Positions 35,477 to 49,298 of a DNA stretch of 64,000 bases are shown here, in pieces. The stretch lies in contig NZ_LT900217.1 of the NCBI RefSeq assembly GCF_900199375.1, positions 124,001-188,000 of the forward strand. Reading direction: 5' to 3'. The position numbers were made by a program, and so were the translations under genes. Below the pieces are notes generated by a model. That model searched no databases. It worked only from the letters and a program-made list of their open reading frames with translations, and was not told the origin of the DNA. The DNA is from Gordonibacter urolithinfaciens. Lineage in GTDB: Bacteria > Actinomycetota > Coriobacteriia > Coriobacteriales > Eggerthellaceae. Position 1 is the stretch's first letter, and every line of letters starts with the position of its first letter.

Positions 35477-36880
35477 TCACCCCTTCCTTTTGAAGATTGC
35501 TGTAGCACCGCCCAAGAGGCCTCGATACCTCACGATAGTGAACGCCACGAGTGCGACCGACAAACCCAAGGAGATCGTCGTGGCATGCACGATGCCTATA
35601 CTTAGGAGGGCCACCTCTGCGAGCAGCACGGAAAGGCCAACAACCTGGTACGGCAAGTCCATCTCTATCCTTACAAACTTTCGCGTGTCGAATGCTCTGG
35701 AGATTGAGATGATCGAATATGCGACAACCGAACCGACAATGGGGCCCCATACGCCGATTTCGGTGGCGAGAAGAACACTCAGCACAACGTTGGATAGAGC
35801 CCCTACGACGGTCGTTACGAAGATCATCCTGTTTTGCTTTGCAGCGTTGTACAGCACGCCAAAATACGTCGAGTAGCCGTTTACCACCGCACCGAACATG
35901 AGCAACGGCACGAACAGCCGCGCCTCGTAGAACCCGCTGCTCAGCATGACGCGCGACAGCGGTTCGGTGATAGCGATGGCAAGTGAGCCAGCACATAGCA
36001 GAAGAGCTGAATAAACGCGAAACACAATGCTGAACGACCGGCTACGATCTGCGGCAGAATATTCCCGTGCCGAGAATATCTGCCATGCCTGCTGAAAAAC
36101 AGACACCAGCATGTTCATCACGGCCGGGAGCTTCGATGCCGCTGTGTACAAGCCTGCAACCGCAATGCCGCTGGAAAACAGAACGATATAACGCCCCGAC
36201 AGGTTTACGAACCACCATGCGAGCGCATTAGGAACCATGGGAATGCTGTAGCGAAGTAGTCTGCGCATGAGATCCCCATCGATGCTCCCTAGGGAGAAGT
36301 AGCGCCACATCCTCGCACCAATCGTCACGAGCAGGAGCTGTGTTGCCTGGCATAGTATGAGGGCGAGCAAGTAGCCGGTGATTCCGGCACGGAGAACACC
36401 GAGAAGCAGGTAACCGGCCCCGCAGAGCACAAGTGTGCTGATTACTCCAGACGCCGCATAGAGCTTCGTCTTTCCAAGCCCCTTCGCGAACTGCATGCAC
36501 ACCGTCTTGAACGAAGTAACAAGGCAAAGGGTAACGAGGTACCACGTGTAGTCAAACCCAGTGAAGGCATAGCCAGCAATACCAACCACTGCGACTACAG
36601 GTGCAAGAGCGAAGGCGACGGACACACCCGTAGATAGCACTTTCCGTGGGTCAGAGTCCCGATCTATCGAGTAGCGAAAAACTCCCTCGTATATCCCAAG
36701 ACAGCAGAGGGGGTAAAGCAACTCCGACATGTTGTTAACAAGCTCACCGATACCGTATTGCTCAGTAGAAAGCAGCGCGGTGTACATAGGCAATAGAAGG
36801 AACTGCATGAGCTTTGTAAGCATGTTGCCTACCGCAAAAACCATGGTATCGCTGACAAGACGCTTGTAGGCTCGCTTCAT
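35477..36880 (-). CDS. polysaccharide flippase (Wzx/MATE-like)
   Basis: This is an integral membrane protein of 467 residues with about 14 hydrophobic segments, opening with VSDTMVFAVGNMLTKLMQFLLLPMYT in the style of RfbX/Wzx flippases. It would move the undecaprenyl-linked repeat unit across the membrane. G+C is visibly lower than the flanking housekeeping DNA. It ends five bases before the F420-beta-like gene begins and belongs to the same operon. Substrate unknown. Confidence 0.88.
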   Translation of the reverse strand: MKRAYKRLVSDTMVFAVGNMLTKLMQFLLLPMYTALLSTEQYGIGELVNNMSELLYPLCCLGIYEGVFRYSIDRDSDPRKVLSTGVSVAFALAPVVAVVGIAGYAFTGFDYTWYLVTLCLVTSFKTVCMQFAKGLGKTKLYAASGVISTLVLCGAGYLLLGVLRAGITGYLLALILCQATQLLLVTIGARMWRYFSLGSIDGDLMRRLLRYSIPMVPNALAWWFVNLSGRYIVLFSSGIAVAGLYTAASKLPAVMNMLVSVFQQAWQIFSAREYSAADRSRSFSIVFRVYSALLLCAGSLAIAITEPLSRVMLSSGFYEARLFVPLLMFGAVVNGYSTYFGVLYNAAKQNRMIFVTTVVGALSNVVLSVLLATEIGVWGPIVGSVVAYSIISISRAFDTRKFVRIEMDLPYQVVGLSVLLAEVALLSIGIVHATTISLGLSVALVAFTIVRYRGLLGGATAIFKRKG

Positions 36881-36923
36881 GAAATCGCCCCTCCCCCCAC
36901 CCGAGCACGCTTCAGCGCCACTT

Positions 36924-38066
36924 TCACACCGCCTCGATCAAATCATGTAGTTCCTCGTAATATGGGGCGGCGAACGGCGGGGCGGCTGCGCCCTCGGGAA
37001 ACCTCGTCATCAAGCCTCGCGCAAGGTCTGGCACGGACGCAAGATCACCTGCGACCGTTATCGCCTCATCGCCCGCATCCTCAAACCATTGAGCACCCGA
37101 GGTCACCTTGTGGTCAGCGGTCCTGAGCACAACCACGGGCGTTCCGGCGATACGGGCAAAGATAGTGCCGTGATAGCGATCAGTCACTACGACTCTATAA
37201 TGGGCATACGACTCGATCACCTTCTCGATTCGACTCCACGCCTCCTTCGAATCAAGATCAATCCCGCCGAGATCAACCGTTGTGTCCGTCTGGGCAAGGG
37301 AGCCGATCTGCCGCTCAAGCTCGTCGGCAAGAGCATCGATTTCGCCATACGAATAGAACTTCTCCCCGTCGTTCCTCGTGCAAAGTAGCGCGCCCGAACG
37401 ATGTCCGTCGAATTCGTATTTACCGATGAGCGTAGTGACCACATCGGGGTAAAGCCTGACATCGACCTTGGGGTAGATGGATCGGGCCTTTTCGGCGGAC
37501 ACTGCATCCCGCGCCAAGAAGAGGGTGCGAGGATGCGCGTTTATCGCCCTTATATCGCGGCGCATGCCTCGCTTGCTCAGGAACTTTATGCTCGTTGGAA
37601 AGAACACGATCCTGTTCCCAGGAAAGGAGTCAGGAATCATGCGATGCGCCGTCTCGTCCGGATGCAGCCCATCCATAGTGTGGCCGCTCTGCATGATTAT
37701 GACGTCGTCGGGTCGAACCAGCCGCTTCAAAAGCACCGCCGTCCTCGCGGCCCCTCCGTTGAAATCCCTGCTCGAAATTTTCACTATCTCGGCACCGGGG
37801 CAATTAGCCTCGACCCAAGCAAGAATGCAGAACTTCTGCGCCTGATCGCCCAAGTTGTTGTGGGTGGGAACGCCAAAATACCAAACCCTTGGACGCTCGG
37901 CACCCTGCAGGCCATTGAGCATCTTCAACAACGCTTTGTTGTCTTTGTGCGCCAAAGGGTGGCGGAGAGCAAGCCGAATAGGACGCACGATCTCCCTATT
38001 GACCATCACGGCGAAGGCGGACAAGCCGGGTATCGACTTAAACTTCATCTTGAATTCGTTGTTCAT
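36924..38066 (-). CDS. polysaccharide pyruvyl transferase family protein
   Basis: Members add a pyruvate ketal to a sugar of an exopolysaccharide or wall polymer, giving it negative charge. The 380-residue protein has the start of the fold in RVWYFGVPTHNNLGDQAQ and the family motif VVVTDRYHGTIFARIAGTPVVVL near residue 320. The start at 38066 is chosen for GAAGGACAAACG upstream. It lies between the polymerase and the flippase in the operon. Confidence 0.87.
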   Translation of the reverse strand: MNNEFKMKFKSIPGLSAFAVMVNREIVRPIRLALRHPLAHKDNKALLKMLNGLQGAERPRVWYFGVPTHNNLGDQAQKFCILAWVEANCPGAEIVKISSRDFNGGAARTAVLLKRLVRPDDVIIMQSGHTMDGLHPDETAHRMIPDSFPGNRIVFFPTSIKFLSKRGMRRDIRAINAHPRTLFLARDAVSAEKARSIYPKVDVRLYPDVVTTLIGKYEFDGHRSGALLCTRNDGEKFYSYGEIDALADELERQIGSLAQTDTTVDLGGIDLDSKEAWSRIEKVIESYAHYRVVVTDRYHGTIFARIAGTPVVVLRTADHKVTSGAQWFEDAGDEAITVAGDLASVPDLARGLMTRFPEGAAAPPFAAPYYEELHDLIEAV

Positions 38067-38097
38067 CGTTTGTCCTTCATAGACGGTTTTCCCACTC

Positions 38098-39198
38098 TCA
38101 CCAACCCAATATTGCCAACACGTTCGAAAAATCGACCGCATAAGGGATGACGCCCTGCCATTCAGGTCGGAGCAGTCCTACGGCAAAAAAGTACGCGAAG
38201 GACATCGAGCACAGAAAAACAAGGGAGAACGTCCGCTCTTTCTGTTTCGGGGCGGTCAAAGCAATGGGAATTGAGATGACTGCGAATATCGAGAAGTAAT
38301 ACGCGAGCCGCGCAAAGATCTCAGCTTGAACGCCCGTCACTTGGAAGAGAACGGCGAGCATCATGGCGTGCTGATAAAAGGACAGCATCCCACGATCATC
38401 CAAGTTCGTTCGCTTAAGAACTTCGATATAGTTCACAACAAAAAACGCAAGCACGGCAACGAATGCGAGCTGAATGACAGCACCGAAATAATTTGAAGCC
38501 ATGAAATCGCTACTGTACACATCTTCACGACCGAGAACCCATTGCGCAAGCGCAAGAACAACGTTAAAGGCAAGCAGGCAGATCGCGTAAAGCGCAAGGT
38601 ACACGAACACGTAGCCTTTGCGAAAACCTATTTTCGTCAGAGGCAAGATGACGAGAGCGATCAATGCATAAACGTGAAACATGGAAGCGGCAACGACGCA
38701 AGCCACAAAACCAACATTGCTCCGCTTTAGAAGAAAGACGAATGCAACCACCAGCAAGGCGGCGGCAATTCCCTGCCTCATGACGTTCATATAGGCCGTA
38801 TAAATGTTGAGCGTGATAAAAAGAAAGCAACTCAACAGGGGGTTCTCCGAATATTTGTATATCGCATAGCCGATGGGAACATACATTACAATCGCCGTGA
38901 ATACGAGAAGCAATTGGTAGTTGCTGGACAGCTGGTTCAAGAGAAGGCACAGAGCAGTAAAACCCGGCTCGTATCGCTCCAAAGCAAACGCCGACCAACC
39001 CTCGGCCCCAATCCTCGCGTACGCGCGAATGAACTGCTCCGTGTCAACGCCAACCGTGTAGCTTCTGCATGCAGCGATACAAATGAGCAGGGCGAAGACC
39101 AAGGCGACGTACAATCTTTTCGCCTTGGTTGAGCGTTTTGGCCTGATGACAATCGCCAAAAGTAGGAGGGTTAGCAGAACGAGGCTGTAGAAAAACAT
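38098..39198 (-). CDS. EpsG-family polysaccharide polymerase
   Basis: This is a 366-residue integral membrane protein with about ten segments. It has the EpsG-type pattern CRSYTVGVDTEQFIRAYARIG, then ERYEPGFTALCLLLNQLS near residues 45-90. It is probably the Wzy-like polymerase that joins repeat units outside the membrane. It ends 31 bases before the pyruvyl transferase. Confidence 0.85.
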   Translation of the reverse strand: MFFYSLVLLTLLLLAIVIRPKRSTKAKRLYVALVFALLICIAACRSYTVGVDTEQFIRAYARIGAEGWSAFALERYEPGFTALCLLLNQLSSNYQLLLVFTAIVMYVPIGYAIYKYSENPLLSCFLFITLNIYTAYMNVMRQGIAAALLVVAFVFLLKRSNVGFVACVVAASMFHVYALIALVILPLTKIGFRKGYVFVYLALYAICLLAFNVVLALAQWVLGREDVYSSDFMASNYFGAVIQLAFVAVLAFFVVNYIEVLKRTNLDDRGMLSFYQHAMMLAVLFQVTGVQAEIFARLAYYFSIFAVISIPIALTAPKQKERTFSLVFLCSMSFAYFFAVGLLRPEWQGVIPYAVDFSNVLAILGW

Positions 39199-39209
39199 TT
39201 GCGCTCGCC

Positions 39210-40577
39210 TTAATCTAAAGAGTCGAGTTCGACATGGCCCACCCATCCGGACGGAGGGGTGAAGCGGCGTACAGGGGAAATATGATTGAAGGACACGGGG
39301 TTCCGCCCGTCCATACTGCACATCACATCACCCGGCAATCCGGAGACCAAAGGAAGACGCTCCACCTTGAATGCATGCGCCAATGAAGGTATTTTCTGGA
39401 AATCAAATCCCATAATCCTGGAAGCCACCATGTCAACGATGACGGGATTACCCCCGCATAGCAGAACTCCGGCATCGACCGGATCAGGCTCAAGCGGGCC
39501 CTCGCCTTCGCCCGCTACGATCCCGTCCACAATCGCAACGTATCCCATTCGAACGGATCGGCTCAAAGTCCCATCGAGATTTCCGTACAGGAGAATCTTG
39601 TTGAGATCGAGAATCGTCCTCCAAAGCGTATCGTTACCGAACCAACTGCCGTTTCTGGCAACCGCCCTGTTGTCGCCCCACACCTTTTTCGCAATCCATT
39701 TCAAGGGGACGAGTACGCGAGCGATGGGCCGCGCCAGATTAGCAATGCTTTTCGCCCGTGCCGTCAGCACTCCCTCGGCCTTCCTAGCCATGCCGTTCTC
39801 CGCAAATTGATCGCCGCCATCAGCCGGCGCGCCAACGGTATGATGAGGGAGTAGATTCTTGTTCGTGCTGACTCCCACAAGGTTTTTCAGACAGCAGGTC
39901 ATGCCTGCCTTTTTATGAGTCTTCAACTTCGGCAGATTGACGAAGATATCGGCTTCCATAACAGACCCGCCCATCTCGTACAGATTGGTTTGTCCGTCGT
40001 GCGCCCTATTCGTCTCCTCGATATCGTAGCTCGCTCCGTAGTAGCCTCCCAAAGAGGTCTCCTTGGTGAAAAACTCGCTCAGGTCGCCTTCAACGTTGTA
40101 AAGGGTCTTTCCAGACGGATCGCCTGGCAGCTCGACGGAAGAAAGGATTATCCCGTCACCAGAGACGTTCCAGCGCTCGTTTCTCATGTCGACGAGAGAA
40201 AAGGAGATTCCACCTTCTTCGCACTTACGTCTCCATTCTTCAACCGGCATGAGCGCCACGATCTCGTCGAAATTGGCAGGCGTCATCGGGCTGTCACCGA
40301 CGATGATAGTTCCAGATCCGGCCATGTTCTCGACCAAGATATCGATCACCGCCGTAATGACGGAAGGATGGGTGATCATCTGGACCCATTCATCCCTGCG
40401 CAAATGCCTCTCCTGAACCCAGTTGGGTTTGACGAAAACCCTGTCGCCAGGATGCACGCAGCTCAGAACACCAGTGCTCGATATGAGCCGGCCGATCTTC
40501 TCCGCATCATATTCGCAACCCGTGAAGCAATGGCAGGTTAGATTTGATATAACGCTTTCCGTCATAGCCGATCCCAT
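39210..40577 (-). CDS. DUF362 domain protein
   Basis: This is a 455-residue protein of the DUF362 family: VFVKPNWVQ near the start, IIVGDSPM, DIFVNLPKLKTHKKAGMTCCLKNLVG, and AIVDGIVAGEGEGP with GGNPVIVD in the last third. Many members carry a ferredoxin domain; this one lacks any CxxCxxC set. Function is unknown. Its presence beside an FrhB-like gene is common in surface polysaccharide loci. The start at 40577 follows the upstream gene by two bases; an ATG at 40565 is an alternative. Confidence 0.8.
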   Translation of the reverse strand: MGSAMTESVISNLTCHCFTGCEYDAEKIGRLISSTGVLSCVHPGDRVFVKPNWVQERHLRRDEWVQMITHPSVITAVIDILVENMAGSGTIIVGDSPMTPANFDEIVALMPVEEWRRKCEEGGISFSLVDMRNERWNVSGDGIILSSVELPGDPSGKTLYNVEGDLSEFFTKETSLGGYYGASYDIEETNRAHDGQTNLYEMGGSVMEADIFVNLPKLKTHKKAGMTCCLKNLVGVSTNKNLLPHHTVGAPADGGDQFAENGMARKAEGVLTARAKSIANLARPIARVLVPLKWIAKKVWGDNRAVARNGSWFGNDTLWRTILDLNKILLYGNLDGTLSRSVRMGYVAIVDGIVAGEGEGPLEPDPVDAGVLLCGGNPVIVDMVASRIMGFDFQKIPSLAHAFKVERLPLVSGLPGDVMCSMDGRNPVSFNHISPVRRFTPPSGWVGHVELDSLD

Positions 40578-40579
40578 CG

Positions 40580-41695
40580 TTACGCAATATTTGTATAGAA
40601 ATCTGCCAGCAGCAACGCTGCAGCTCTTTGCGAGTATCCGGCATCGTCGATGCGCATCGCGGGATCCTGGAACCTGCCCTCGAGCGCCGCATTTGCAATC
40701 GCATCGCTCCAATCCGACAGTCGTTCCTTTCTTCCAAGGAATGTAGCGACACCGGTAATATCCACCTCAGACGGGACGTCTTTGGAGAACACGCACCTCA
40801 GCCCAGATGCTTGGGCCTCAACTGCGGCCACGGGCAATCCTTCACACAAAGACGGCATAGCCAGCACGTCGAATACGGAATACAGCTTGCCCACGTCCTC
40901 GCGAAGTCCCAAAAGATGTACTTTGCCCTCCAGCCCGAATTCGGCTATCAAACCGGACAACGCTTCTTCTTCAGGCCCGCTGCCGACGATGAGGAGCTCG
41001 GCCCGATGCTCGGTCTTGAGAAGCTCTCGAAACACATCGAACATGAAGGGGTAGTTCTTCTGCTTTGCAAGCCTGCCGACGCATCCAACGACGGGGAAGG
41101 CATCGGGGCCGATCGGCAGCTTCCGTTTGAGCTCGGAGGCGGCGGCTTCATCGAAACGAAACGCCTCCACATCGATACCGTTACGGAAGATGCGATAGGA
41201 CTGATCGCCGAAAAGATAGTCTCCGGCCTCCTGCGAGCAAGCGAGCCGTTCCGTTGCAAATCTTTTTCCGTATCGGATAAGCGGATAGTTTCTTATTCGA
41301 TGGCTCAAATGCTCCGAACTCGCCGCAAGATGGCTGTGAATAAGCCTGTTTTTCACCCCAGCATACGATGCGGCGCGAAGGACGCAGAAAGCGGTATTCG
41401 GAACGTGGCAATGAACTATGGAATAAGCGATTCCTTCGCTTTTTAGCAATTCGTTCACGTACCTGACATATCGAAGCGGCTCTTTCGAAGCGTCCGGAGC
41501 ACAGTAAATTCTGGAACCAGATGCCATGCACTCCTTCTCGAACGTTATGGATGAAGGAATGTGGTAGAGGTAGTCGAAAGCAATTCTGTTCTGGTCGATC
41601 TCCCGCATCATGTTCCAGACATAGCGCATCACGCCCGACTCTTTGCTCATCGCGGGCACGACTTGGAGAACCTTGATTCTCTCACGCGATGTCAC
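40580..41695 (-). CDS. glycosyltransferase, GT4 family
   Basis: This is a cytosolic GT-B enzyme of 371 residues adding a sugar to the lipid-linked repeat unit. It has KVLQVVPAMSKESGVMRYVWNM at the start, IHSHLAASS, PVVGCVGRLAKQKNYPFMFD near residue 200, and the C-terminal E-x7-E region PSLCEGLPVAAVEAQASG. It overlaps the ATP-grasp gene by four bases (ATGA). Donor and acceptor cannot be told. Confidence 0.9.
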   Translation of the reverse strand: MTSRERIKVLQVVPAMSKESGVMRYVWNMMREIDQNRIAFDYLYHIPSSITFEKECMASGSRIYCAPDASKEPLRYVRYVNELLKSEGIAYSIVHCHVPNTAFCVLRAASYAGVKNRLIHSHLAASSEHLSHRIRNYPLIRYGKRFATERLACSQEAGDYLFGDQSYRIFRNGIDVEAFRFDEAAASELKRKLPIGPDAFPVVGCVGRLAKQKNYPFMFDVFRELLKTEHRAELLIVGSGPEEEALSGLIAEFGLEGKVHLLGLREDVGKLYSVFDVLAMPSLCEGLPVAAVEAQASGLRCVFSKDVPSEVDITGVATFLGRKERLSDWSDAIANAALEGRFQDPAMRIDDAGYSQRAAALLLADFYTNIA

Positions 41696-42627
41696 CTTAT
41701 CTCACCTCTATCTGCGGCATCGTCAAACGGCTTATGCGATCTGGACTCTCGCATCCCGCGCACATGCAAGACCTCTCCCCATCGGAAAATGAAGTCATCG
41801 GTGAAATAGGGAAGAACGCCTCCCGCGGGAGAAAACGTCAGCTCGCCGAAGTAGACTTTCCCTTCAGCCTCATAGAGGTCGACGCGGACGAAATCGAAAT
41901 CCGCCGATAAGGACTTCGCTATTTCGAGCATCGTGTCGAACCCGCTGGGTTTCGGAATTTCGCGCTCGTTTTTCATCGAACCCCGAAGGCCCTCGATTGG
42001 CTTCCACTCGAGATCGTAAAGGTTGAGCTTCAGCGATTCTTCCCGATTTGAACAGGTGAGGACGAACGAAGGAACACCATTCAGGCAATGGAATTTATAG
42101 TCTATAACGTCATCTAAACCGCCGACGTATTCCTCTGCGTAAATACGACGCGGAATCAGCTTGTAGTGTGGCTCCACGCAAGCGCGAGGGTAGTCGGCAG
42201 CCAACCACTGGTGAGCATGCGAGATCATATCGTCGACATCAAGTCTCGTCCTATCCATGCAAATGTAATTCATTTCGCAGCCATGTGTGGCCTTGAGGAC
42301 GAATTTGTCCGGGAAAGCCGAGATGTCGATCTCCTCGACGCTACTCCAAGGCCCCCCGCACAGCGGTATAAGGATGTTTTCGGCACCCAAATTTGCAACG
42401 TAGTCCCTTACGGCGTATTTGTCTGTACAGCGAGCCATTAGCTCCTCGTCGGCATTCAGCTCAATCCACGAGATCTTGTCAGCCAATGTTCTCGGTTTTT
42501 CGATGTCGAGCCGTCGGCCGTATCTGAATCGGGCATCGAAGAGCTTGGCGTTCTTCGACCCGAAGAAACGCGCAAAACCGTTGAGGAAAGCCCTGTACGT
42601 GCTTTTCCCAATCCCATTCGACGACAT
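41692..42627 (-). CDS. ATP-grasp (TupA-like) polysaccharide-modifying protein
   Basis: The 311-residue protein follows the TupA/ATP-grasp pattern: KPRTLADKISWIEL, CTDKYAVRDYVANLG, FVLKATHGCEMNYICMDR, and FDFVRVDLYEAEGKVYFGELTFSPAGG near residues 245-270. Such proteins are thought to ligate an amino acid or similar acid to the polymer. It starts one base after the ugd stop. Confidence 0.85.
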   Translation of the reverse strand: MSSNGIGKSTYRAFLNGFARFFGSKNAKLFDARFRYGRRLDIEKPRTLADKISWIELNADEELMARCTDKYAVRDYVANLGAENILIPLCGGPWSSVEEIDISAFPDKFVLKATHGCEMNYICMDRTRLDVDDMISHAHQWLAADYPRACVEPHYKLIPRRIYAEEYVGGLDDVIDYKFHCLNGVPSFVLTCSNREESLKLNLYDLEWKPIEGLRGSMKNEREIPKPSGFDTMLEIAKSLSADFDFVRVDLYEAEGKVYFGELTFSPAGGVLPYFTDDFIFRWGEVLHVRGMRESRSHKPFDDAADRGEIR

Positions 42628-43893
42628 CTAGTCCCTCCTGAACAGGTCTCGCGTGTACACCTTGCCGACCACGTCAGCCAGCTCGTCACTCCAGCGATTG
42701 GCAATTATCACGTCGCAACGCCGCTTGAAGGCATCCAGATCATGCGTCGCCTCGTTACCGAAAAACTCGTTCTCGTCCAAAGTTGGCTCATACACCAGCA
42801 TGGGGATGCCCTTGGCCTTGATGCGCTTCATGACGCCCTGCACGGAAGATGCCCGGAAATTGTCCGAACCGGCCTTCATGGTCAGGCGGTATACGCCCAC
42901 CATGGGCATCGCGTCCCAGTCGGCAAATTTTTCCGCAAGCTCCTCCACCTGTGCCGCCACGAAATCCTTGCGTGTTCGGTTGGCGTCAACGATGGCGCCT
43001 ATCAGGTTCTGCGGCACGTCCTGATAGTTCGCCAAGAGCTGCTTCGTGTCCTTGGGCAGGCAGTAGCCACCATATCCGAAGGAGGGGTTGTTGTAGTGCG
43101 AGCCAATGCGCGGTTCCAGGCACACGCCCTCGATGATCTGGGTAGCGTCCAGCCCGTGCACGCACGCGTAGGTATCGAGCTCGTTGAAGTACGCCACGCG
43201 CAGAGCCAAGTACGTGTTGGAAAAGAGCTTCACGGCCTCCGCCTCTGTGGCGTGCATAACGAGCTTCGGGATGCCGGCAGTCCCATCGGCGTTCTCGCGC
43301 TCCCGCTCGGCGGGGTCGGCCCCCTCCTCCAGCAGCGCCGCAAATCGCTCGGCGTACTCACTTAGAAGGTCGGCTTCAGCATGATTACTCGGCACGCCCA
43401 CTACGATGCGGCTGGGATGCAGGTTGTCGTAAAGAGCATGCCCCTCGCGCAAGAACTCCGGGCTGAACAGGAAACGTCCCTGCGGGTAGCGCTCGCAGAG
43501 CGTCTTAGTGTAGCCTACGGGCACGGTCGACTTCACCACCATGACTGTATCAGGGCTCACGCTCAGTACCAGTTCCACCACCTGTTCCACAAGGCTCGTA
43601 TCGAAATAGTCTTTCTCAGGATCGTAGTTGGTGGGCGTGGCTATGACCACCAACTCGGCCGCCGCGTAGGCCGCATATCCGTCAAGCGTCGCTGCAAGCG
43701 CAAGCTCGCGCACACCGGCTTTCGCCTCTGTCAGGAACCGCTCGATCTCCGCGTCCCGGATGGGGCTCGCCCAACGGTTGATCGCATCCACCTTCTCGGG
43801 CACCACGTCCACGGCCGCAACCTCGTTGCGCTGCGCGAGCAGCACAGCGAGCGAGAGCCCGACGTATCCTGTGCCCGCTATAGCTATCCTCAT
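42628..43893 (-). CDS. ugd: UDP-glucose 6-dehydrogenase
   Basis: This enzyme oxidises UDP-glucose (or a related nucleotide sugar) to the uronic acid with NAD. The 421 residues carry GTGYVGLS at residues 7-14, [17 protein letters not shown], and the catalytic Cys in [14 protein letters not shown] near residue 260. Its product implies a uronic acid in the polymer. Codon use is GC-richer than in the genes downstream. Confidence 0.95.
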
Positions 43894-43944
43894 ATCAGAA
43901 ACCTCATGTCCATAGTCGAACCCGCATACGTGACGCGTCGCAGG

Positions 43945-44859
43945 TCATCGCTTTCCTCTCGTGAAGAACTCGAGCCCCTTCGCGAAGCATGCCCCTGGGG
44001 ACGTGGCAAACGCCCGCACCCCGTACCCCATAGATTTCAGAAGCATGCCGCTACGTAGGCACGCGAACGCAAGCACCGCGTTATGTCTGAACTCTACGAA
44101 TCGGATGTCCCGCTTGCTCAGGCGCGAGTAGAAAACCTTCGCCGCCTCGTGACGCGCCATCTCGCCTTCGATCTTGTTCTGCCCGAGCGAGAGCCTCTCT
44201 CCCTTGTGGAGGTACTGGTGCACGTGAACCTCCGGCATATAGCCGATGCGTGCACCGGCCTCGATGCACCGCAGCATAAGCCACCAGTCCTGCCCGGTCG
44301 CCACCTCGCCGAAGCCCTCGATCCTGTCGAAAAGCTCTTTCTTGAGCAGGTAGATAGACGTGGGGCAGATAGGGGTCAGCAGGTGGGCGCGCAGCAGTCC
44401 GTCTCGTGAAAAGTCCTTGCAATGGTTCAGATAGCGATGCTCTACAAGCTTGCCTTCTTCGTTGTACCAAGCCACGTCCTGCCAGCTCATATCCAGGTCG
44501 TTTTCCATAGTGAAAACGACCTGGGTCTCGATCTTGTCGGGCAGGAACTCGTCGTCGTCGTCCAGAAAGGCGAGCCACTCGCCGCAAGCCTGCCTGCAAG
44601 CGACGTTGCGTGCTGCTCCACCGCCGGTCTTTCCGCCCGTCTCCACCTCGCGTAGGCGTCCGTCGGCCACATAGCACGCCAGTCGCCGCTTCGTCGCCTC
44701 GTCCTCAGGAGAACCGGGTACGTTGTCGTTTGCAATTAGCACCTCGATGTTGCGGTAGGTCTGTCCCAGCACGGAGTCGATCGCGCGCGGCAGCTTATTG
44801 GCGCGCCTGTACGTAGGGATCACCACAGTCACCAACGGGGTTTCGCTCAAGTTGCGCAT
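43945..44859 (-). CDS. glycosyltransferase, GT2 family
   Basis: The 304-residue GT-A enzyme has VTVVIPTYRRANKLPRAIDSVLGQTY at the start, the metal-binding LAFLDDDDEFLPDK near residue 95, and QDWWLMLR as the base region. The start at 44859 directly follows the upstream stop (two bases). It presumably adds the second sugar after the initiating transferase. Confidence 0.9.
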   Translation of the reverse strand: MRNLSETPLVTVVIPTYRRANKLPRAIDSVLGQTYRNIEVLIANDNVPGSPEDEATKRRLACYVADGRLREVETGGKTGGGAARNVACRQACGEWLAFLDDDDEFLPDKIETQVVFTMENDLDMSWQDVAWYNEEGKLVEHRYLNHCKDFSRDGLLRAHLLTPICPTSIYLLKKELFDRIEGFGEVATGQDWWLMLRCIEAGARIGYMPEVHVHQYLHKGERLSLGQNKIEGEMARHEAAKVFYSRLSKRDIRFVEFRHNAVLAFACLRSGMLLKSMGYGVRAFATSPGACFAKGLEFFTRGKR

Positions 44860-44861
44860 CG

Positions 44862-45596
44862 CTACCGCCCCGTCTTTCGCGCCATGGCGCCGAGGGTGCC
44901 GACGACTATCCCGGCGTCCATCCGCAAGCCGCACCGCCGCACATACTCGAGTTCTATACGCTGACGATCTCCATTCTCCCATGTGGCTTCGTTGCGTTCC
45001 GTCACCTGCCACAGCCCCGTCACGCCTGGGCGCACCGAGAGCGCCAAGTCGCGATGTTCTCCGAACTCGTGCGTCTCGGCCTCGGTCACGGGCCGCGGGC
45101 CCACGACCGACATGTCGCCCATCAGCACGTTCACTAACTGCGGGAACTCGTCTATCGAGGTCTTGCGTATGAAGCGCCCCAGGCGGGTCACGCGGGGGTC
45201 GCCCTCCACCTTTTGCTCGCGTCTCCACGCGGCCAGCTGCGCCTCGTCCAAGTAGCGCTCGGGGTGCTCGTGCGCGTCGGCCCGCATGCTGCGGAATTTG
45301 AATATGCGCATGGGCCTCCCGCCCCGGCCCACCCGCTCCTGTCTAAACACGGGGCCTCCGGGCGAATCCAAGCTGATAGCCAAAGCCAAAACCAAACCAG
45401 GTACCATTAGCGCCGCGAGCACGACAGCCGAGAACGCGATGTCGAACGCCCTCTTGGCGGCGCGGTAGCCCAAACGCGCACGGTTGCGCTTCGTGACCTC
45501 GGCATCCGAGAGTTCGGGAAGCGGCGCAAACGTCTCCTCGCATGCGAGTGCAACCGATCCCTCGTTCGAGCTCGACGTGGTTTTTTGCTGCGTCAT
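44862..45596 (-). CDS. undecaprenyl-phosphate sugar phosphotransferase (initiating transferase 2)
   Basis: This bacterial sugar transferase of 244 residues has one N-terminal membrane segment and the catalytic core FKFRSMRADAHEHPERY, RKTSIDEFPQLVNVLMGDMSVVGPRPV, RPGVTGLWQVT. It begins the repeat unit by moving a sugar-1-phosphate onto undecaprenyl phosphate. It has a paralogue immediately upstream, so two alternative first sugars are possible (inference). Confidence 0.92.
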   Translation of the reverse strand: MTQQKTTSSSNEGSVALACEETFAPLPELSDAEVTKRNRARLGYRAAKRAFDIAFSAVVLAALMVPGLVLALAISLDSPGGPVFRQERVGRGGRPMRIFKFRSMRADAHEHPERYLDEAQLAAWRREQKVEGDPRVTRLGRFIRKTSIDEFPQLVNVLMGDMSVVGPRPVTEAETHEFGEHRDLALSVRPGVTGLWQVTERNEATWENGDRQRIELEYVRRCGLRMDAGIVVGTLGAMARKTGR

Positions 45597-45602
45597 GCGG
45601 CA

Positions 45603-46394
45603 TCACCGACCGCATACGAACACGGGCTGCAAGAGAGCAAGCTGCGGCGACGGAACTGGCGGGCACGAGTGCGAAGCGCATCTAGAACGCCCCCCCCCGG
45701 TCACGACAACGCGAACCGTCTGGGCTATCAGCCTCAGGTCGGTCATGACGCCGCGCTCGGCGATGTAGCCAAGGTCCAGCCGCACCATGTCGTCGAAGTC
45801 AAGGTTGGAGCGGCCCCCCACCTGCCACGGCCCCGTGAGTCCCGGCTTCACGGCCAGACGCTGCATGGCCCAGGCGTCATAGAGCTCGACCTCCCAGGGC
45901 AACGGCGGGCGCGGGCCCACCACGGACATCTGCCCGAGAAACACGTTGATGAATTGGGGGAACTCGTCGATGGAGTGCCTGCGTATGAAGCGGCCGATCC
46001 TCGTCACCCGCGGATCGTCCGCGATCTTAAACATGGGTCCTTTCACTTCATTTTTCTCGCGTAGCTGTTCCAGGCAAGCATCGGCGTCCTCGACCATCGA
46101 CCGGAACTTCCACATGCGGAAGTACGACGGCTTGCCGTCTGCGCCGAACCCTCCCACACGCACCTGCCCATAGAACGGGTTGCCGGGGGACTCTATGCGT
46201 ATCGCCAGCGCCAACAAGATTGCAGGGATGAACCCAACCATGATCACCACAGCGGAAAACGCAATGTCGAACGCCCGTTTCACGAAACGGTAGCCGCGTC
46301 TCCCACGACTCCATTCCTCCCCGCGCATGTCTTCAGCAGGCGTCTCGGGTGCCCCCTCCCCAAGATCGAGGGCGCTGCTTGTGTCCGTTGCCAT
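45603..46394 (-). CDS. undecaprenyl-phosphate sugar phosphotransferase (initiating transferase 1), G9 tract at 3' end
   Basis: This is a 263-residue member of the same family as the next gene: KRAFDIAFSAVVI membrane segment, WKFRSMVEDAD, RRHSIDEFPQFINVFLGQMSVVGPRPPL, KPGLTGPWQVGGRSNLDF. The family normally ends within a few residues of VVTGGGA. Here a run of nine G on the coding strand (45698-45690) is followed in frame by about 28 unrelated residues to 45603. With ten G the protein would end GGGAF and stop at 45682. The tract may vary in length. Confidence 0.88.
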   Translation of the reverse strand: MATDTSSALDLGEGAPETPAEDMRGEEWSRGRRGYRFVKRAFDIAFSAVVIMVGFIPAILLALAIRIESPGNPFYGQVRVGGFGADGKPSYFRMWKFRSMVEDADACLEQLREKNEVKGPMFKIADDPRVTRIGRFIRRHSIDEFPQFINVFLGQMSVVGPRPPLPWEVELYDAWAMQRLAVKPGLTGPWQVGGRSNLDFDDMVRLDLGYIAERGVMTDLRLIAQTVRVVVTGGGRSRCASHSCPPVPSPQLALLQPVFVCGR

Positions 46395-46405
46395 CGTTGC
46401 CCCCT

Positions 46406-46993
46406 TCAGCTCTTGAAGGGGACGTCGAGGGGCATCTGCTCCACGAAGCCGCCGTCGGCGTCGCATACGTCCACCAGGCAGCGCCTGCGGTGGCGGTCGA
46501 TCTTTCGCACGCGGCGCTCCTGACCCATGAGGGGACCGGCAAGGACCCGAAGCTCGCCTTCCACGATGTGGGCCATCGAGCTGCGAAGCACGTGGTCTGC
46601 GTCCATGGAGGCCTCGAACCACTCCTGGGCCTCGAAGGCCAATGGCAAGAACCCGCGTCCGCTCTCGCTCGCGATGCGCGCAGGGAAGCTCAGGCGGGAA
46701 AGCTCCCTGTCCAAAGCCGTCACGTCGCCGGTCGCCACGAAGAAGTACTCGTGGTACATCTGCACGAGGTTGAGCGACCAGACGCCGGCGCGCTTGAACC
46801 AGCGCTCCTTGCGCAGCACGAACGCATCGGCCAGGAGGTCTGAGGGCACGATCTTTCGAATCTTCTCGCAGGTCGCCTGCTCGCGCCCTTCGGGCACATG
46901 CACCAGATACCAGCGCGTTTTGCCGCGCGGCGTCCTCCTGCCGCGAGGCAGCCCCATAGGCAGAGCGCTTGTCGATATCGAAGCCGTCCCCAT
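46406..46993 (-). CDS. NusG/RfaH-like transcription antiterminator
   Basis: The 195-residue protein has an N-terminal NGN-type domain (TRWYLVHVPEGREQATCEKIRK, VQMYHEYFFVAT) and a C-terminal KOW-like segment (VLAGPLMGQERRVRKIDRH). As the first gene of a long polysaccharide operon, it matches the UpxY/LoaP/RfaH role of letting RNA polymerase read through the operon. The start at 46993 follows GGAGGCGGGG. Its promoter is probably the invertible one immediately upstream. Confidence 0.87.
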   Translation of the reverse strand: MGTASISTSALPMGLPRGRRTPRGKTRWYLVHVPEGREQATCEKIRKIVPSDLLADAFVLRKERWFKRAGVWSLNLVQMYHEYFFVATGDVTALDRELSRLSFPARIASESGRGFLPLAFEAQEWFEASMDADHVLRSSMAHIVEGELRVLAGPLMGQERRVRKIDRHRRRCLVDVCDADGGFVEQMPLDVPFKS

Positions 46994-47070
46994 CGGATGA
47001 CCCCGCCTCCCTCTCTCAAGGCGACTCCGACAAAGCCTTGACCTGCGAGAATGCGGGGCAGCTGCGTCGG

Positions 47071-47211
47071 AAAGGTACACCTTTTGGCAGCTGCGACGCC
47101 AAAAGGGCCGTTCATGACATCCGAACGCGTCATTTGGGGTTTCTCAATAAAGAGCCCGCAAGGGGTCGTGTATAATGGTGAAATTCAACTACGGTAAAAA
47201 GGTGTACTTTT
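47071..47211. promoter_or_regulatory. candidate invertible promoter, OFF orientation
   Basis: AAAGGT-AC-ACCTTT at 47071-47084 and its inverse AAAGGT-GT-ACTTTT at 47198-47211 are near-identical palindromic sites. Their two-base asymmetric cores are opposed, as in serine-invertase crossover sites. Between them TATAAT (47171-47176) reads on the plus strand, away from the polysaccharide operon. Inversion between the cores would place it on the minus strand at about 47111-47106, some 110 bases upstream of the antiterminator gene. A serine recombinase gene begins the other flank. Confidence 0.65.
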
Positions 47212-47253
47212 GTGATGGGCTAAACATACCGTTTACCTGCTGCTATGCCGCTT

Positions 47254-47874
47254 CTATGAAGACTCCCCCTGATATTTCCCGTCCTCGCGCGCCCATCGCG
47301 CGAAGGTTGTCTCGCTCACCTTGCAGCGCGCGGCGGCCTCTTTCCGCGTTATGCGTCCGCCCCAGTAGGCCTCCCGCGTCTCCCCGTAGTTCGCAGGGCG
47401 TTTCTTCCTCGGACGCCCGAAGCTCACCCCGCGGGCTTTGGCGGCCGCTATGCCCTCGGCCTGCCGCTGCCTTATGTTCTCACGCTCGATTTGGGCAACG
47501 TAGCTTAGAAGCTGCAGCACGATGTCCGCTATCAGCACCCCCGTTATGCCGTCGCGCTCCTCGCGCGTGTCCAATACCGGCATGTCGAGCACCACGACAA
47601 ACACGCCGCGCACCTTCGTGACATCGCGCCATACGTCCAAGATCTCGGCATAGTCGCGTCCCAGCCGGTCGATGCTCTTAACTGCCAGCACGTCGCCCGG
47701 CCGCAGCGCACCCATCAGCCGATGCCACGCAGGCCGTTCGAAGTCCTTGCCGCTCGCCTTGTCGGCGTACACCGCCCCGTCCTCTACGCCGAATGCGCGC
47801 AGCGCGTCCAGCTGCCTGTCCAGATTCTGCTCACGCGAGCTCACCCGCGCGTAGCCGTACATCGTCGATGCCAT
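47254..47874 (-). CDS. serine recombinase (resolvase/invertase)
   Basis: The 206-residue enzyme has the catalytic N-terminal domain: YGYARVSSREQNLDRQ with the nucleophile Ser near residue 12, VKSIDRLGRDYAEILD, and ERENIRQRQAEGIAAAKARG. A short C-terminal Hin-like HTH (GRITRKEAAARCKVSETTFARW) follows. This is the size and layout of DNA invertases. It lies 43 bases from the right inverted site, in the same direction as the operon. No transposon partner genes are present, which favours a local switching role. Confidence 0.9.
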   Translation of the reverse strand: MASTMYGYARVSSREQNLDRQLDALRAFGVEDGAVYADKASGKDFERPAWHRLMGALRPGDVLAVKSIDRLGRDYAEILDVWRDVTKVRGVFVVVLDMPVLDTREERDGITGVLIADIVLQLLSYVAQIERENIRQRQAEGIAAAKARGVSFGRPRKKRPANYGETREAYWGGRITRKEAAARCKVSETTFARWAREDGKYQGESS

Positions 47875-48119
47875 GGCCCCTCCGATTCTCCCGTCGCTTG
47901 CATCACGGGAAACAGGCTAAGAGGTGTCCCTGCAATACCGAGGGCAGATCGACCCTCGGGTTCGATTTCATACTGTTGAAAAAAGAATTTTGGCACCTCG
48001 GAAAGAACGCCAGGGAATGCAAATGGAGCGAGGCCGCCAAGCAGCTTCGCTCCTCTTCTGGCAAATCGAGGCAGTTTGTTTGCACTTCCCCCGAGGCACG
48101 GGCGGCCCCGGCCCTGGCC

Positions 48120-49298
48120 CTACCGGCCGATACGGGTGGCGTCGGCCACGTTCATGGTCATGGTCTGGAAGCGGTTCTGCATGAAGTCGTTGTCGTAGTG
48201 CTTCGCGTAGAACTGCTCGATGGGCGTGTCGGGCGCCTTGCCCGCCATGCGCTGGTACCAGCAGTCGATGGACTGCACGGTCATCACGCCGTCCAGCAGC
48301 ATGAGCGCCGCGCACGCCGCCGTCACGCCGTAGCGCCAGTTCCACGGGATGAGGTTGATGAGCTTCAGCAGCTGCGGCAGCAGGAGCTTGATCCACGCCA
48401 CGCCCAGCACGCCCCACATCACCATGAACACGAAGTTCGTACGCCCGTCGATGGACAGGAACGTGCCCGAGTAATCCCACGCGCGGATGCCGAACGAGAA
48501 TTCCATGATCCAGCTCGTGAAGTACTCGAACGCCCCGCCGATGACGGCGCTCACGAGGAAGATCACCCACACGGGCTTGTCGTGGAAGCGGTTGAGAGCG
48601 ATGGTCATGAGCAGCGCGCCGAAGCCGTAGATGGGCGAGAACGGCCCGAACAGCAGGCCCGCGCGGTCCTGGTACTCGTGGTACAGCGCGAAGTGGAACA
48701 GCACCTCGATGATGAGCCCCAGCACGCAGCACACCACGAAGATCCAGAACAGGTTGAAGAAGTTCAGCGTGATAAAGCCGCGCTTCGGCTTAGCCTCGGC
48801 GGCCCGGCGCCGCTCTTCGCGGCGCTGCTCCTTGTCCATCTTGCGCAGCTTGCGCTGCAGCGCGCGCTCCTCGGCAAGCGACGGGTCCAGATAGCTCGTG
48901 ACCGCGATGAGGATGACGAGCTGCACCAGGTAGCCGATATGGTGCGCCGACAGGCCGAACAGCATGAGGGTGCCGATGATGGAAAGCACCGTGAGCGCTG
49001 CCAGCGTGTTCGCCGTGGCCGCAGCGTGCTTCCGACGGTTGAGCAGAAGGCGCACGCCCAGGAACACGAACAGCACGGCCGACGCCGCGAGCACCGCCAT
49101 GAGCGCGGCGAAGATGGCGACGGAGGCCGTGCGGTAGCCGGCGCCTCCCAGCCCCTGGACGAGCGAGACGGCCACCGGCACCAGGTCGCCAAGCGAGGCG
49201 AGGCCCCCCAGCACGCACAGCGCGCCGAACAGCTTCAGCGGCAACGGCACGCGCTGCCCGTCGGGCATGCGCCCCTCGTCGTTGCGATCTTCGGTCAT
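48120..49298 (-). CDS. putative ABC-transporter-like membrane protein (CmpB/PF06541 type)
   Basis: The 392-residue membrane protein has about four N-terminal segments. A charged cytosolic stretch (LRKMDKEQRREERRR) and a C-terminal domain of about five more segments follow. The second half shows the family pattern FGPFSPIYGFGALLM, GGAFEYFTSWIMEFSFGIRAWDYSG, IDGRTNFVFMVMWGVLG. The biochemical function of this family is unknown. It overlaps the GH3 glycosidase gene by four bases (ATGA). The 245 bases between it and the recombinase hold a short CCGAGGG/CCCTCGG hairpin (47938-47960 region) and no gene. Confidence 0.75.
   Translation of the reverse strand: MTEDRNDEGRMPDGQRVPLPLKLFGALCVLGGLASLGDLVPVAVSLVQGLGGAGYRTASVAIFAALMAVLAASAVLFVFLGVRLLLNRRKHAAATANTLAALTVLSIIGTLMLFGLSAHHIGYLVQLVILIAVTSYLDPSLAEERALQRKLRKMDKEQRREERRRAAEAKPKRGFITLNFFNLFWIFVVCCVLGLIIEVLFHFALYHEYQDRAGLLFGPFSPIYGFGALLMTIALNRFHDKPVWVIFLVSAVIGGAFEYFTSWIMEFSFGIRAWDYSGTFLSIDGRTNFVFMVMWGVLGVAWIKLLLPQLLKLINLIPWNWRYGVTAACAALMLLDGVMTVQSIDCWYQRMAGKAPDTPIEQFYAKHYDNDFMQNRFQTMTMNVADATRIGR

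Follow-up and report, generated by a model that had tools for sequence, protein, structure and literature searches.

We analysed a window of 64,000 nucleotides (64 kb) from Gordonibacter urolithinfaciens, in which a recombinase gene, two palindromic sites and a set of polysaccharide genes lie next to each other. On the minus strand, their order is the recombinase, a proximal dyad, 113 bp containing a -10 box, a distal dyad, a loaP-like gene and the polysaccharide genes.

Recombinase, dyads and polysaccharide genes of the window

The recombinase gene (47254-47874, minus strand) encodes a small serine recombinase of 206 aa, presumed to be a dedicated invertase. It matched Pfam Resolvase (1.6e-33) and contained a resolvase catalytic domain with the serine motif present, in which S12 of the sequence YARVS is the likely nucleophile; its relatives in the PDB were Sin, gamma-delta, Tn3 resolvase and a DNA invertase. 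An earlier note on this DNA had rightly placed a serine recombinase gene beside the segment, although with its start on that side; it is the 3' end that faces the segment, so that recombinase, segment and operon are co-oriented. An assignment to the Mpi master invertase equivalog was rejected, as NCBIfam NF009949 gave 49.7 bits against a cut-off of 272. The nearest named relative was found in Gordonibacter pamelaeae, with 97% over residues 1-186. The reading frame of this orthologue (L007, L177) departs after residue 186, we found no dyads behind it, and the cassette seems to have decayed or been replaced there. In the viral collection, we identified three distant relatives of the recombinase; a relative with 52% identity was present on an IMG/VR contig (L153).

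The two 14-bp dyads, described earlier as having opposed AC/GT cores, were both present, at 47198-47211 (recombinase-proximal; AAAAGTACACCTTT on the minus strand, core AC, kept in relatives) and at 47071-47084 (operon-proximal; AAAGGTGTACCTTT on the minus strand, core GT, and thus opposed). Each is a candidate crossover site, and their forward-strand letters are AAAGGTGTACTTTT and AAAGGTACACCTTT, respectively. Both dyads reached the maximum consensus score, with 12/12 positions. Allowing up to one mismatch, the pattern AAARGTNNACYTTT matched these two dyads and nothing else in the 64 kb, against 0.07 matches expected, and AAAGGTACACCTTT likewise recovered the two window dyads as its sole matches in the 3.29-Mb single-contig chromosome. 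With just two chromosomal matches at this threshold (more diverged sites being possible), an Mpi-like system of many targets was also rejected.

The distance between the sites, previously given as 129 bases, is 127 bp from start to start, with 113 bp between them. The presumed invertible segment (47078-47204, unstranded) measures about 127 bp between the two cores. Its bounds were placed at the dyad cores; the breakpoints between a sister cassette (L093) and its counterpart L175, discussed below, fall within dyads. The perfect TATAAT that had been reported to point away from the operon was located at 47171-47176 on the plus strand, 21 nt from the proximal dyad, and is directed away from the operon (OFF). 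There is no canonical -35 alongside it, and a strict sigma-70 scan of 45200-48600 gave no canonical -35 or sigma-70 match. Inverted candidate recombination sites around a presumed promoter, one of the features by which an inverton is recognised, are present in the window. The direct repeats said to flank the left site were likewise found, as two copies of GGCAGCTGCG (47057-47066 and 47086-47095, unstranded) that bracket the operon-proximal dyad. We found no further copies in the window, two copies arose in 17 of 100 shuffles, and such repeats were not seen among the relatives inspected. The repeat contains the palindrome GCAGCTGC, and one copy would travel with an inversion; the pair is possibly an operator, or possibly due to chance.

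The first gene of the presumed operon (46406-46993, minus strand) encodes a NusG paralog of 195 aa, as anticipated by the earlier note, with NCBIfam antiterm_LoaP as its match (5e-22). At 78.8 bits it does not reach the NF033641 cut-off of 125, and we therefore refer to it as LoaP-like. It aligns with the LoaP-like proteins encoded behind the same cassette in relatives. UpxY, the NusG-type antiterminator of Bacteroides, was considered and rejected, with no match of the window protein to NF033644 at E <= 0.01. The RNA fold of the loaP leader was not exceptional (z -0.92). The adjoining gene encodes an undecaprenyl-phosphate sugar transferase, the priming enzyme (45603-46394, minus strand; Pfam Bac_transf 6.5e-57, NCBIfam EPS_sugtrans 6.4e-73). 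The rest of the presumed operon (35477-45228, minus strand) encodes, by Pfam, GT2, UDP-Glc/GDP-Man dehydrogenase, TupA ATP-grasp and GT1/GT4 proteins, a DUF362 protein, an EpsG polymerase-like protein, a pyruvyl transferase and a Polysacc_synt flippase. These genes sit in a low-GC island at about 33.5-47 kb of the window and, from their order and strand, we infer a single operon of capsule type.

Dyad pairs and promoters behind related recombinases

We gathered relatives of the recombinase from public genomes and read them with their surroundings, giving a non-redundant set of 92 loci. An opposed-core dyad pair (score >=20) lay no more than 520 nt beyond the recombinase stop codon in 40/92 loci, compared to none upstream, one in the stretch 1 kb downstream, and 0-1 in each of five shuffles. 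Same-core pairs were found only four times, against 40 opposed. The dyad score was devised after the window sites and the first relatives had been seen, and the upstream, distant and shuffled controls outweigh the score itself. Such a pair is missing behind about half of the related recombinases, including a large Collinsella group, and a de novo inverted-repeat search of the pairless loci gave a few weak pairs but none for the greater part of the Collinsella group. The closely related recombinases of L104-L126, a large set mostly from one genus of the order, had no recognisable downstream dyad pair.

The core dinucleotide (AC, AG, TT or GT) followed the recombinase tree, with 5 changes compared to 19 when labels were shuffled, as is expected if each recombinase acts on its adjoining sites. 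The distances between sites clustered near 105, 116, 127, 138 and 149 bp in 39 representatives of <75% recombinase identity. Rayleigh r was 0.67 at 10.5 bp and 0.74 at 11.0 (n=35, distances up to 165 bp), in a series in which 26 periods were tried first and ten on the <75% representatives, with p-values uncorrected, kinship partly removed and no exact period claimed. This spacing supports a role for the helical repeat, as distinct from a measured period. More than two dyads were observed behind some recombinases: L021 and L034 have three, and L081 has one additional internal copy. Nested inversions could occur at such loci. One genome (G048) contained three related recombinases (L094, L096 and L067), of which at least L094 and L096 have AC-core site pairs that are almost identical, which would permit inversions between distant loci.

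The promoter geometry also recurs. In 15/18 AC-core loci, we identified a perfect TATAAT located 19-23 nt from the dyad that it faces, whereas 2000 shuffles gave a mean of 0.07 and a maximum of 2 such loci. The box was directed to the recombinase side (OFF) in 12 of these 15 loci, the window included, and to the operon side (ON) in three (L065, L097 and L187); a G-rich stretch upstream of the -10 was common to many AC-core loci. A LoaP-like gene was located downstream in 14/18 AC-core loci, compared to 7/39 AG-core loci. Several AG-core loci have, as their next large gene, one for a surface protein carrying choline-binding, MucBP, SpaA or Cna_B domains, which suggests, from gene content, that AG-core cassettes before adhesin-type genes are surface-protein switches. 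Large genes, several of them adhesin-type, follow the AG-core cassettes of L098, L011, L130, L136, L139, L021, L035 and L146.

Orientation of homologous segments between genomes

We identified a sister cassette of recombinase, dyads and loaP (L093; recombinase at 991319-991909) on the same chromosome. Its recombinase is 63% identical to that of the window, and its core is AG as opposed to AC, a difference that should keep the two cassettes from recombining with each other. No clear -10 was found for it. Compared to the G. pamelaeae locus L175, the segment of L093 was 93% identical when inverted and 57% in direct orientation. The upstream flanks of the two were 95% identical and the first 46 nt downstream contained one mismatch; the downstream value of 47% over 150 nt arises because the G. 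pamelaeae sequence turns to N a short way further on. Of all the comparisons, this one speaks most strongly for inversion. The orientation of L175 is shared by the Gordonibacter loci L089 and L091 and by a member of the family, L083, to which the L093 segment was 78%, 79% and 72% identical, respectively, when inverted, and 55-57% when direct.

An equivalent comparison was found among AC-core loci. The segment of L065 was 73%, 68% and 73% identical to those of L064, L066 and L077, respectively, in inverted orientation, against 42-50% in direct orientation. The -10 of L065 is directed toward the operon (ON), and those of L064, L066 and L077 away from it (OFF). These alignments show that dyad-bounded segments invert in the course of evolution; they compare species and genera, not clones, and so give no rate within a culture. 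Between species, both orientations were seen for the sister cassette and for AC-core relatives. The window segment itself had no partner above z 5 in the pairwise segment comparison, its best identity being 63% and direct, and a genus-wide DNA search with it returned only the window.

A candidate promoter switch, its alternatives and known systems

Genome comparison establishes the anatomy of the cassette, its recurrence beside related recombinases, and the existence of homologous segments in both orientations in related genomes. The best-supported reading of these data, which we consider very probable, is that the cassette is a phase-variation switch, whose promoter is invertible by the adjoining recombinase and is now OFF. 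This had been proposed in the earlier note, and gains support from the recurrence in related genomes and from the homologous segments found in both orientations between matching flanks. The recombinase of 47254-47874, presumably acting on the sites in the window, would bind the two 14-bp dyads as dimers, cut at the 2-bp cores and ligate the ends in the opposite arrangement, which would turn around the 127-bp segment and the -10 box that it carries. As the segment now lies, the promoter, if active as we presume, would be directed into the 3' end of the recombinase, leaving the loaP-capsule operon OFF. In the flipped orientation, the -10 would be 21 nt upstream of the operon-proximal dyad, through which transcription would proceed into loaP. 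The LoaP-like product would then carry RNA polymerase through the long operon, presumably by antitermination. Orientation would presumably be heterogeneous within a population.

The dyads might instead be operators, for a regulator or for the recombinase itself, that mediate repression or autoregulation with no recombination. They are palindromic and lie around a promoter, the palindromic GCAGCTGC repeats look operator-like, and resolvases are known to repress from their own sites. However, operators have no need of an opposed asymmetric 2-bp core, for which the pairs are biased by 40 to 4, and relatives differ in the orientation of homologous segments whose breakpoints lie inside the dyads; we regard this explanation as highly improbable. 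That a former switch is locked in the present strain would accord with the G. pamelaeae orthologue, decayed, with a frame that departs after residue 186 and without dyads, and with the OFF state of 12/15 scored AC-core loci. The recombinase of the window is nonetheless intact and both of its dyads score 12/12, making such a loss improbable.

A further alternative is that the segment inverts but mainly controls another target, for example through an antisense RNA against the recombinase, with the operon transcribed by read-through from the recombinase gene. The promoter does now face the 3' end of the recombinase, and the co-orientation of recombinase and operon makes read-through possible. We nevertheless consider this unlikely, as LoaP-like or surface-protein genes come after the segment in many relatives, and the ON-state loci L065, L097 and L187 keep the same distance from the -10 to the operon-side dyad. 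An invertible promoter of the loaP-capsule operon accordingly remains our preferred reading.

Phase variation of capsules has been studied extensively in Bacteroides. A single serine recombinase of B. fragilis, Mpi, inverts 13 regions that include seven capsule promoters, according to the passage of PMC4747536 that cites Coyne et al. 2003. The window resembles the Mpi switches in having a serine recombinase, a short and presumably invertible promoter upstream of polysaccharide genes and a NusG-type first gene; unlike the master invertase Mpi, its recombinase adjoins two near-perfect sites that have no equal elsewhere in the genome. The parallel with Bacteroides capsule loci drawn in the earlier note extends to the logic of the switch, but not to its recombinase, which is local and not an Mpi equivalog, nor to its antiterminator, which is LoaP-like and not UpxY. 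By analogy, the locus may follow the Bacteroides-type capsule switch logic, with a dedicated local recombinase and a LoaP-like protein replacing Mpi and UpxY.

The invertible segment of Hin is about 1 kb long. In most of the loci studied here, by contrast to this far longer segment, the sites are about 104-150 bp apart and helically phased. The presence of a small serine recombinase and inverted dyad sites, which in Hin lie around a promoter, is shared with Hin/Gin, and Hin works with a Fis-bound enhancer (PMC3798978). In Eggerthella lenta, of the same family as Gordonibacter, capsule clusters undergo reversible inversions of megabase size at the 16-bp repeat GATAAGCGCGGTTATG, which has no recombinase beside it, and these are the only inversions in the Eggerthellaceae papers that we found (PMC13174815). 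Both cases would combine reversible inversion tied to capsule loci with a loaP gene. The E. lenta repeat was tried as a candidate and, even with up to 3 mismatches allowed, does not occur in the window. As in the LoaP loci of Goodson et al. 2017, in the account given by PMC13174815, a LoaP-type NusG paralog heads a long biosynthetic operon; unlike LoaP proper in NCBIfam, the window protein falls short of the cut-off (78.8 against 125 bits). In the open-licence literature, we found no paper that joins LoaP to an invertible promoter, and no description of this cassette in Coriobacteriia; preprints lay outside this search and earlier accounts elsewhere are possible.

We tentatively suggest, as a possibility that we rate somewhat below even, that the cassettes of gut Coriobacteriia and Firmicutes form a family of local switches complete in themselves. 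Each would comprise a recombinase, two helically phased dyads about 105-150 bp apart with a core specific to the recombinase clade, and a promoter that serves either a LoaP-capsule operon or surface adhesins. If so, the phasing would reflect synapsis over a tightly bent loop, perhaps with no need of a Fis-type enhancer, while several switches in one genome would be prevented by their differing cores from recombining together. The phased spacing of the sites would provide a test of serine invertase action over very short DNA. A switch this compact, worked by a recombinase of its own, would likewise make surface variation directly open to testing in Gordonibacter and its relatives, with a bearing on phage sensitivity and host interaction.
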